The position numbers were made by a program, and so were the translations under genes. DNA of 64,000 bases, from positions 33,127 through 97,126 of the forward strand of contig JABHEG010000200.1 of NCBI GenBank assembly GCA_018676675.1. Reading direction: 5' to 3'. This document shows, in pieces, positions 32,094-34,769 of the stretch. The stretch comes from Lentisphaerota bacterium (GTDB taxonomy: Bacteria; Verrucomicrobiota; Lentisphaeria; Oligosphaerales; JABHEG01). Position 1 is the first letter of the stretch; every line of letters begins with the position of its first letter. Under the pieces are notes generated by a model. The model worked only from the letters and a program-made list of their open reading frames with translations, was not told where the DNA came from and searched no databases.

Positions 32094-32113
32094 CTCAGAA
32101 GACGCTGAGTTTT
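32094..32113 (+). terminator. Possible weak terminator after sfsA
   Basis: A 5-bp stem (CTCAG / CTGAG) with a 6-nt loop is followed by TTTT directly downstream of the sfsA stop. It overlaps the end of the convergent thioredoxin gene by two bases. The stem is short, so the call is tentative. Confidence 0.3.
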
Positions 32114-32663
32114 ACTCGGTGAGGAGGCGCTCCAGGATCACGGCAAGATCCGCTTCAGGCCTCAAGCCCACGAGCTTCTCCTGCTGTTTGCCACCCTTGT
32201 AGATCCGAATGTCAGGGATTGGGCCTACTCCTGCCGTTCGAGCCAGTTCCCCGGATTCCTCGGCGTTGACTGTCATGATCGCCACACGCCCGGCGAACGC
32301 ATCAGCCAGCGAGTGAATCCTCGGCTTCATCATCTCACAGAAACCGCACGTGTCCGTGTAGAACTTGACCAGGGCGACCTCGTTCTCCGCCAGTGCCTTC
32401 TCGAATTCGGCACTCCCGGTTATGTGGGTTACGTGTGCCGAGGGAGTGAAGTCAACCGTCGCCCCCATTCCGCCGCCCCTCTGCGTGGGCGTCCTGGGCG
32501 GCAAGACCATCAGAATCATGATACCCAACATGGCGCCGAATAACACGCCCCCCTGGGGGCTGCAGGAGATGGGGCAGGATCCCCCCTTCTTCTTTGCCCA
32601 TTGCCCGACTAACGCACCGACAAGCCCACCGATCAGAGCTCCGAACACGACCTTTGTTATCAT
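32112..32663 (-). CDS. Membrane-anchored thioredoxin-like protein
   Basis: The 183-residue product has two N-terminal hydrophobic helices (VFGALIGGLVGALVGQWA and VLFGAMLGIMILMVLP) rather than a cleavable leader. Between them lies a short loop with two cysteines (SCPISC). The thioredoxin fold follows with active site TCGFC in the usual place (FYTDTCGFCEMMKPRI) and the cis-Pro loop GPIPDIRIYKGG. It is probably a thiol-disulfide exchange protein of the membrane or periplasm. The CGFC dipeptide is unusual compared with CGPC of thioredoxin. The gene is convergent with sfsA. The long gap to its right should contain its promoter. Confidence 0.85.
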   Translation of the reverse strand: MITKVVFGALIGGLVGALVGQWAKKKGGSCPISCSPQGGVLFGAMLGIMILMVLPPRTPTQRGGGMGATVDFTPSAHVTHITGSAEFEKALAENEVALVKFYTDTCGFCEMMKPRIHSLADAFAGRVAIMTVNAEESGELARTAGVGPIPDIRIYKGGKQQEKLVGLRPEADLAVILERLLTE

Positions 32664-33110
32664 CCGCCTCGCCTCCTGTTCAGATACCTTCCTCTAGCGT
32701 ACCCCGGCCAGAGCACCGTCTTAGTATACGTCGAGGTTCACCTTTCGTCGGCTGCAAGCCCCCTCCCGGGGGCGGTTCTCCCATGCGAAGGGCGCCTCAG
32801 TTCCATGCGTTTGGACCAGGTGTAGGGGGCAGGATGTTCCATATGATCGCACATTTCTCTGGGGAACCTGAGCAACCGAGGTCACATCGGGACCGTTCCG
32901 AGGCGTAGCGCTCGTCTGTAACTTCGGACTGTCAATCAGAGCCGCGACTAACGCATTCGCGTCAAGCTAAGGTGTAATCCGTTCTTCGACAGCGTAGTAC
33001 ACCACGACAAACGATGATATCACAGCCACCGTCTACGTGGTGACCCGTCGCGCGAATGGCGGCCACCGGGGGAGCCGCCGGTCCAATGCCATCGATTCAG
33101 GGCGTTCGGT

Positions 33111-33168
33111 GTACGTAGTTCCGCGTTCACGCGGCCCGGACAAGCCGTCTGAAGACGGAACTACGTAC
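33111..33168. repeat. REP/BIME-like inverted pair with covarying hairpins
   Basis: Two 24-nt arms face each other (33111-33134 and 33145-33168). Each starts GTACGTAGTTCCG and contains its own hairpin: CCGCGTTCACGCGG in one and CCGTCTTCAGACGG in the other (read on its own strand). The arms differ at only four bases, which form two compensating base pairs in the small stem. A GTAG next to a short hairpin is the layout of REP elements moved by RAYT transposases. No RAYT gene is in the window. Confidence 0.75.
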
Positions 33169-33325
33169 GGTTCACTCGTCCGCTCTGGCCGATGTGTGCT
33201 CAAGTCAATAACAGGAGCCGCCGGTCCCCCAGTGGTTGCACGCTCTGAGCCTGCCGAATGGGGGCCTGGTTCAGAGCCCCGGCTCCTCTGCCGCAGGAAC
33301 TTACGGCTTGGCTTGACGCGAATGC

Positions 33326-33428
33326 GCGACTTACGGGAGCGGTATGTCCCCTCCGTCAGAGCCGCGACTTACGGGAGCGGGCGTCTTGGCGTCGTCCCCG
33401 GAAACCGCTCCCGTAAGTCGCGGCTCTG
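33326..33428. repeat. 24-bp perfect inverted repeat plus an extra partial copy
   Basis: CAGAGCCGCGACTTACGGGA... (33357-33380) is repeated exactly inverted at 33405-33428 around a 24-nt loop. The right 17 bp of the arm (GCGACTTACGGGAGCGG) also occur directly at 33326-33342. A more degenerate piece is at 32937. The stem is far longer than a normal terminator and lacks a T-tract, so it looks like a second family of palindromic intergenic elements. Confidence 0.85.
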
Positions 33429-33578
33429 TTCAGGCACAGAACAAGCGCAAGTTACACCCTCCGACATGTCTGCCGGACCTTCGGCAAAGGCGACCGCTCG
33501 TCTGAGACCTGCTATATTGGCCTTTGACGCGGAAGAAACAGTAGCACCGTCTACACGCCCCAAGAGCTGTACTGCACC

Positions 33579-34769
33579 ATGATAGAGCGTTTGACACAGA
33601 CCATTGTGTCCCGTTTCATCCGGGACCACGAGCACACCGATGACCTGAAAGTGCGGGCTCGGTATGGCCAACTGGAGGGGTGGGCCAGCATCGTGACGAA
33701 CACGGTGCTGTTTGCCGTGAAACTGGTGATCGGCATCCAAGCCCGAAGCGTGGCTCTGATTGCCGACGCCGCCCATACGTTTGCGGACTCCGCCACCTCC
33801 GTGGTCATTATCATCGGGTTCCGGGTAGCTTCCACCCCTTCCGACCGGGAACACCCGTTCGGCCACGGACGTATGGAGGCAGTGGCGTCGCTGGTGGTCT
33901 CCGTTCTGCTGTTTGTCGGCGGGGTCGAACTGCTGAAGCATTCTGTGATCCAGACGATGAAGCCGACGGTCACGTCAGTGAGTAACGCTGCTGTGGCCAT
34001 CGTGTCCGTCACCATCGTGATCAAGGAGCTACTCGCGCGTTTCGCGTTCACACTGGGCCGTATGATTGACTCCCGGGCGCTGGAGGCGGATGCCCTCCAC
34101 CACCGCAGTGATGTACTGGCAACGGCTCTGGTAGTCGCTGCCCTCCTTGCCTCGCGAGCAGGCCTGACCTGGGTCGACGGGGCCGGAGGAATTGTCGTGT
34201 CGTTGATGATCCTGTGGTGCGCTTACGCCGTGGCTCGCGATGCAATCGGGCCACTCCTCGGTGAGGCCCCGACACCTGAGCTTCTGCGCGACATCAGAAG
34301 CGCAGCGCTGGGCATAGATGGCGTCCAGGGCGTCCACGACATCATTGTCCACAACTACGGAGGCACACGCCTGGTTTCCCTTCACGCAGAAGTCAGTGCA
34401 GAACGTTCCGCAGCCGAACTGCACGAGCTGGCCGAGCTTGTGGAGGGAGAACTCGAGGGCAAGCTTGGGGCCCACCCGGTCGTCCACATTGACCCCATCT
34501 GCACAGCCCACCCCGACTACCAGCGGATGTGGGATGTCCTCCAGAAGATCATGGACGACGATGGTCGGGTCCACGCGTTCCATGACCTGCGCATCATCGG
34601 GCGAAGCGACGGCCAGGCCAAGGTTGTCTTTGACATCGTCCTGGACAACGATACTGATCGACAGGAAACACACGATGTGATCCACGCATTCGATGAACAG
34701 GTACGCCAACACTTCCCGGGAATGAAGACAATCATCCGGGCCGAGCCGCGCTACACTTACACGGTTTGA
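33579..34769 (+). CDS. Cation diffusion facilitator (CDF) family metal transporter
   Basis: The 396-residue inner-membrane protein has about six transmembrane helices in the first 215 residues, then a cytoplasmic CDF dimerisation domain. The metal-site motifs are visible: DAAHTFADS in TM2 and HHRSD in TM5 supply the Asp/His ligands typical of zinc, manganese or iron exporters. FGHGRMEAVASL is the conserved loop. The tail is longer than usual and appears to hold two ferredoxin-like segments (QGVHDIIVHNYG; and a second from about 315 with VVFDIVLDND). The family exports divalent cations by proton antiport. It is followed 21 bp later by the phosphotransferase gene. Confidence 0.92.
   Translation: MIERLTQTIVSRFIRDHEHTDDLKVRARYGQLEGWASIVTNTVLFAVKLVIGIQARSVALIADAAHTFADSATSVVIIIGFRVASTPSDREHPFGHGRMEAVASLVVSVLLFVGGVELLKHSVIQTMKPTVTSVSNAAVAIVSVTIVIKELLARFAFTLGRMIDSRALEADALHHRSDVLATALVVAALLASRAGLTWVDGAGGIVVSLMILWCAYAVARDAIGPLLGEAPTPELLRDIRSAALGIDGVQGVHDIIVHNYGGTRLVSLHAEVSAERSAAELHELAELVEGELEGKLGAHPVVHIDPICTAHPDYQRMWDVLQKIMDDDGRVHAFHDLRIIGRSDGQAKVVFDIVLDNDTDRQETHDVIHAFDEQVRQHFPGMKTIIRAEPRYTYTV

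Follow-up and report, generated by a model that had tools for sequence, protein, structure and literature searches.

A REP doublet of the short-hairpin type in a Lentisphaerota genome and its RAYT partner

The doublet and the closest described systems

Several described systems resemble the element reported here. The REPtron Mb of Marinomonas sp. MWYL1 shares with it the order GTAG, 2 unpaired nt, a 5-bp perfect stem and a 4-nt loop (PMC8266576). The loop of Mb is TTTA, and SELEX and mutants revealed that T, T and A (T12, T13, A15) are needed, while the third loop position (14) is free. In the same study, pairing within the stems counted for more than their exact letters; the tag served as a guide, and for cleavage at CT, strong selection was confined to its last two bases (AG). 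The GTAG REP superfamily of Di Nocera et al. (PMC3733652) comprises 24 families, including ones in Rhodopirellula baltica and Opitutus terrae, and some of them have a dinucleotide between the tag and the stem. GTAG, short stem-loops, head-to-head dimers and complementary stem changes are common to this superfamily and the present element. TnpA-Y1 subclass 2.8 (PMC6006769) was published as 8 proteins from Cyanobacteria with "long" REPs. These proteins are about 199 aa in length and have NHYH, W followed by H (or Y), the Tyr motif YIH-NP and a proline-rich N-terminus; their REPs are tagged with GTAG. E. coli TnpAREP (PDB 4er8) and its BIMEs have a homologous HUH/Y1 core, GTAG and inverted REP pairs in common with the system described below, but the E. 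coli REPs have long bulged stems.

The window, which is the whole analyzed stretch of 64,000 nt, contains at one site GTACGTAGTTCCGCGTTCACGCGG, 10 nt and CCGTCTGAAGACGGAACTACGTAC in succession (Table 1). As the preliminary description stated, two 24-nt arms lie in inverted orientation and differ at four positions, which constitute two compensated pairs, and GTAG stands beside a TTCA-loop hairpin in both arms. Each REP is 20 nt in length and reads GTAG-TT-CCGnn-TTCA-nnCGG, where nn is CG/CG in one and TC/GA in the other. In single-stranded DNA folding, each 20-mer forms this 5-bp hairpin. Alternatively, the whole 58-nt unit can fold into a single long outer hairpin (-19.2 kcal/mol, z -5.3).

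Table 1. Positions of the doublet, the repeats around it and the cognate RAYT gene (window positions unless a contig is given)
Feature	Position	Strand	Remarks
Left terminal inverted repeat of MITE-X	32952-32977	+	
Left copy of the 14-bp direct repeat GGAGCCGCCGGTCC	33071-33084	+	flanks the module
BIME module "element B"	33085-33213	.	short inverted ends AATGCCATCGATT / AAGTCAATAACA (consensus TAATGTCATTGA / TCAATGACAGTA); putative boundary
Conserved core of about 85 bp, GCGTTCGGTGTAY-doublet-GGTTCACTCGTCCGCTC	33102-33185	.	common to copies with differing outer flanks
BIME (REP doublet)	33111-33168	.	GTAG tags outside (GTAC-GTAG ... CTAC-GTAC)
REP 1	33115-33134	+	tag GTAG, spacer TT, 5-bp stem CCGCG, loop TTCA
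REP 2	33145-33164	-	tag GTAG, spacer TT, 5-bp stem CCGTC, loop TTCA; inverted relative to REP 1
Right copy of the 14-bp direct repeat GGAGCCGCCGGTCC	33214-33227	+	
Right terminal inverted repeat of MITE-X	33301-33326	+	88% complementary to the left one
Perfect 24-bp inverted repeat CAGAGCCGCGACTTACGGGAGCGG	33357-33428	.	separate adjacent repeat
RAYT gene	C245:34646-35389	-	REP_Tyr_transpos match; found as a relative of a Pfam Y1_Tnp match

The window element thus has a GT[AG]G tetranucleotide 5' of a short palindrome and is paired in inverted orientation. It is a REP/BIME, ordinary in kind. Its layout corresponds to the Mb type, GTAG + 2 nt + 5-bp stem + loop T-T-N-A, and across the window family the loop is TTNA, with N mainly C or T. 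Our preferred reading, held with a probability of about 0.9, is a REP doublet (BIME) of the short-hairpin type that is the non-autonomous partner of a RAYT encoded elsewhere in the same genome.

Dispersed copies and the RAYT gene within an array

The preliminary description proposed to count the pattern genome-wide and to look for a RAYT gene flanked by it. The genome comprises 14.1 Mb in 390 contigs. Across all of it, GTAGTTCCGNNTTCANNCGG with up to 2 mismatches gives 58 matches versus 14 for the reversed control, and GTAGTYCCGNNTTNANNCGG without mismatches gives 44 exact family members versus 0. The pattern is therefore dispersed and not restricted to the window, although 44 exact copies are a moderate number and not hundreds. 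In the window itself, 2 matches with up to 2 mismatches are seen versus a shuffle mean of 0.01. A chance likeness of two short palindromes has practically no probability left, being refuted by this shuffle expectation and by the genome-wide counts of 44 versus 0.

Copies in the same genome have five types of inner stem pairs (CG/CG, TC/GA, CC/GG, GC/GC, and CT/AG). Of the 37 distinct copies, 35 have Watson-Crick pairing at both inner pairs, versus a mean of 10.7 and a maximum of 21 when partners are shuffled. Most copies descend from a few stem types, so this covariation represents a few events and not 37. In other genomes, both inner pairs are Watson-Crick in 242 of 254 copies versus 155.7 after shuffling. 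These copies were found by a doublet pattern that fixed the outer stem only, and therefore the inner pairs are an unbiased test. The claim that hairpin pairing is kept despite sequence change holds, with few independent changes in the own genome. Covarying copies come from 11 phyla (Planctomycetota, Verrucomicrobiota, Acidobacteriota, Thermodesulfobacteriota, Kiritimatiellota, Lentisphaerota, Armatimonadota, Nitrospinota, Actinomycetota, Pseudomonadota, and Hydrogenedentota), mostly as metagenome bins, among which single cases may be contamination.

A RAYT-like gene exists in the genome, and it is flanked by the pattern. The gene on contig C245 lies inside an array in which GTAGTTCCGCGTTTACGCGG (+) alternates with GTAGTCCCGCCTTCAGGCGG (-) at a period of 84 bp, and the same REPs are present on both sides. 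Its protein scores 20 bits against Pfam Y1_Tnp, where the cut-off is 23, and 57.8 bits (E 1e-15) against NCBIfam REP_Tyr_transpos (NF047646), where the curated cut-off is 80. REP_Tyr_transpos is the sole NCBIfam match for all 18 aligned RAYT relatives, including the protein of the window genome, which has 59 bits in this comparison. Among solved structures, the RAYT profile matches only E. coli TnpAREP 4er8 (E 1e-8). The HUH (NHYH) and Tyr (NYIHHNP) motifs are conserved in the family; the HUH motif, the single catalytic Tyr and a similarity to RAYT rather than IS200 proteins place it among RAYTs. The elements, their dispersal, their covariation and the cognate RAYT within the array are established.

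By motif only, the protein agrees with subclass 2.8 in Table 1 of PMC6006769 (NHYH, W[YH], YIHYNP, about 199 aa, and a proline-rich N-terminus). Unlike the published subclass, the family here occurs in Verrucomicrobiota and Acidobacteriota, and its REPs are short with 5-bp stems and have non-GTAG tags as well. Long canonical GT[AG]G REPs do not flank these genes. The RAYT is called 2.8-like only, because its REPs are short-stemmed and many relatives are non-GTAG. The TnpA of Mb, in contrast, is assigned to group 3 or subclass 2.5 by the papers, a contrast between the two proteins drawn from their descriptions.

Eight genes of the genome lie above the Pfam Y1_Tnp cut-off, and none of them is flanked by this REP. 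Three IS200-like ones among them, L031 (C138:31167-32049), L032 (C351:12246-12601), and L034 (C19:47482), adjoin GTAG-tagged long hairpins, GTAGCCCAGGCC..GGCCTGGG and GTAGCCCCGGGC..GCCCGGGG, which constitute a different GTAG hairpin family. At L031 and L032, these hairpins recur in tandem arrays with a period of 57 or 67 bp, and 36 near matches are found in the genome versus 4 in the control. The layout is REPtron-like around IS200-type, not RAYT, proteins.

The association is seen in relatives as well. The same REPs lie on the flanks of the RAYTs at L122, in a named Verrucomicrobiota genome, and at L139, and homologous RAYTs are flanked alike in at least three phyla. Such hairpins flank 40 of 45 loci of the RAYT clade and 0 of 11 of the neighboring clade; about 0.005 per locus are expected by chance. 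Among 59 relatives, 8 have both REP and RAYT, 2 REP only, 5 RAYT only and 44 neither (Fisher p 2e-5). In the five RAYT-only genomes, the same hairpin is present but differs in its tag or in an outer stem pair. The RAYT-like proteins L291-L301 of the neighboring clade, from the same phylum, have no nnAG-TTYA hairpins within 700 bp; at L300, a different hairpin, tagtagCGCAA-TTTA, is repeated.

The doublet of the window, for which the position relative to genes was determined, is intergenic. The thioredoxin-like gene (32112-32663, -) and the cation efflux gene (33579-34769, +) on either side both point away from it. Side roles of REPs as an intrinsic terminator or an mRNA-stability hairpin pair for neighbor genes have been reported (PMC6006769), and the intergenic position would suit such a role. 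Neither flanking gene reads into the element, however, and the copies have unrelated surroundings, form tandem arrays and flank a RAYT, which makes this explanation very improbable. No promoter or terminator-like site was found in the doublet region.

Guide tags and residue 130

A scan for 5-bp stems that enclose a 4-nt loop of any sequence covered the flanks of 58 RAYT loci. TTCA (127) and TTTA (87) predominate, and every other loop is seen at most 8 times, except for the reverse complements of these two and masked N. The majority tag is GTAG at 21 RAYT loci, GGAG at 10, and one of several others elsewhere. Overall, GTAG, GGAG, TGAG, AGAG, CGAG, CCAG, GGTG, and GTTG are found beside RAYTs of this subfamily. 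Immediately 5' of the tag there is often a GTTY-like motif, with GT at -4 in 49% of loci, for example at L250, L251, and L263.

Genome-wide tag populations agree with the tag at the local RAYT. Genome G007 has 53 copies tagged with GGAG or TGAG (nearly all GGAG) and 0 with GTAG, and G053 has 101 with GGAG and 0 with GTAG. G003, which belongs to the same order as the window genome, has 216 with GTAG and 73 with GGAG or TGAG (mostly TGAG), and its RAYTs lie beside GTAG and TGAG tags. Several RAYTs of the family contain one in-frame stop while their REPs persist: L238 (G003:C366:40064), L236 (G002:C40:71616), L277 (in G210), L330, L331, and L338. In G003, the TGAG RAYT is interrupted and TGAG REPs are still dispersed. 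G003 and the genome of L066, Lentisphaerae bacterium RIFOXYA12_64_32, have RAYTs whose contig coordinates are identical, so the order of this MAG is probably also that of the window genome.

On the RAYT tree the tags cluster, as GTAG requires 6 changes versus 17.0 after shuffling (0 of 500). Among 199 columns, the most informative for GTAG versus another tag is residue 130, which is Asp in 21 of 21 GTAG RAYTs and in 1 of 19 others. In our reading of the profile alignment to 4er8, residue 130 falls at E100 and residue 134 at R104; both E. coli residues are reported GTAG contacts. For a hold-out set, it was recorded beforehand that Asp130 predicts GTAG and non-Asp another tag. In this set, all GTAG RAYTs have Asp (9/9) and all non-Asp RAYTs have another tag (11/11). 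All 30 GTAG RAYTs with a readable tag, including these 9, carry Asp130. The converse failed in the hold-out set, where Asp is seen in 8 of 19 RAYTs with other tags, mostly from Acidobacteriota. Asp130 is therefore necessary for GTAG, not sufficient. Fisher values for residue 130 ignore relatedness, and only 2 independent pairs are well supported. E100 accompanies GTAG in E. coli, whereas Asp does so here; residue 130 is no universal code, because E. coli combines Glu with GTAG.

Taken at a likelihood somewhat better than even, the subfamily switched its guide tag several times while it kept the TTYA hairpin and nearly always AG. At the same grade, residue 130 partly reads the tag, with Asp, and never Glu, Pro, or Phe, required for GTAG.

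A mechanism, including the step to mobility, can be proposed from studied REPtrons. The RAYT, as an HUH/Y1 single-strand nuclease, would bind one REP strand folded into a hairpin, recognizing T, T, A in the loop and the shape of the stem. The substrate of the C245 RAYT would be single-stranded GTAGTTCCGCGTTCACGCGG. The 5' tag might serve as the guide that sets the cleavage dinucleotide, with A3G4 selecting CT. The enzyme would cut and rejoin the single strand, and the doublets would spread thereby. If the RAYT reads hairpin shape, loop and tag in this way, this would be the reason that the two variable stem pairs change only together and that tag and loop are fixed. The natural variation agrees with the Mb data in its loop (TTCA or TTTA), its freely covarying stem, and the AG fixed in nearly all tags. 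Beside the REPs, neither CT nor CA is conserved at a constant distance, and the cleavage site is not visible.

The MITE-like repeat around the doublet

The REP/BIME reading of the preliminary description stands, but it overlooked that the doublet is embedded in a larger MITE-like repeat, possibly its latest copier. MITE-X (32952-33326) is a repeat of about 300 bp with 26-bp terminal inverted repeats, an inner hairpin and many genome copies. No transposase for MITE-X was identified. The separate repeat CAGAGCCGCGACTTACGGGAGCGG is also found at 33325-33342 and has about 199 genome copies when up to 3 mismatches are allowed, often paired in inverted orientation at a separation of about 24 nt. In an Rfam search of 32500-34000, weak sub-threshold matches to microRNA precursors coincide with its inverted repeat in Table 1 and were rejected as chance hairpin matches.

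We collected 13 genome copies of the CG/TC doublet, which have the core of about 85 bp in common and modular flanks beyond it. MITE-X copies without the BIME are present on C198, C81, C230, C141, and other contigs, and the 14-bp direct repeat occurs once in them. Around the module, this direct repeat looks like a target duplication. Several copies share it, and so one old insertion may have been amplified later with the MITE.

With a probability somewhat below even, the window doublet is a fossil passenger, a former REP doublet that is now copied only inside a MITE with terminal inverted repeats (MITE-X or element B). The left half of MITE-X is common to about six of the 13 collected doublets, which suits this reading, as do the BIME-free MITE-X copies and the 14-bp repeat, single in those copies and flanking the module here. 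On the other hand, the copies L006 and L048 have little in common outside the short core and the module ends, and the array at the C245 RAYT is independent of MITE-X. The passenger reading is compatible with an origin as a REP doublet, and hence with the preferred reading of a RAYT-dependent BIME. Since the window doublet is carried inside the MITE-like repeat, the recent copies probably spread at least partly with that repeat.

Beyond the earlier reports (PMC3733652, PMC6006769, PMC8266576), the present data add the phylum breadth of the short TTNA REP, its link to a subclass 2.8-like RAYT, and the tag swaps, the novelty of which is provisional. With the window element, one more REP/RAYT pair is well supported, from a bacterial genome of very large size (14.1 Mb). 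Such systems escape searches limited to GT[AG]G tags and to genes above the Pfam Y1 cut-off. If the tag switching is true, the subfamily provides a natural series in which the reading of the guide by HUH transposases can be tested. A direct mutational test of REP recognition would be possible with these natural tag swaps and the one protein position at the GTAG contact of E. coli TnpAREP.
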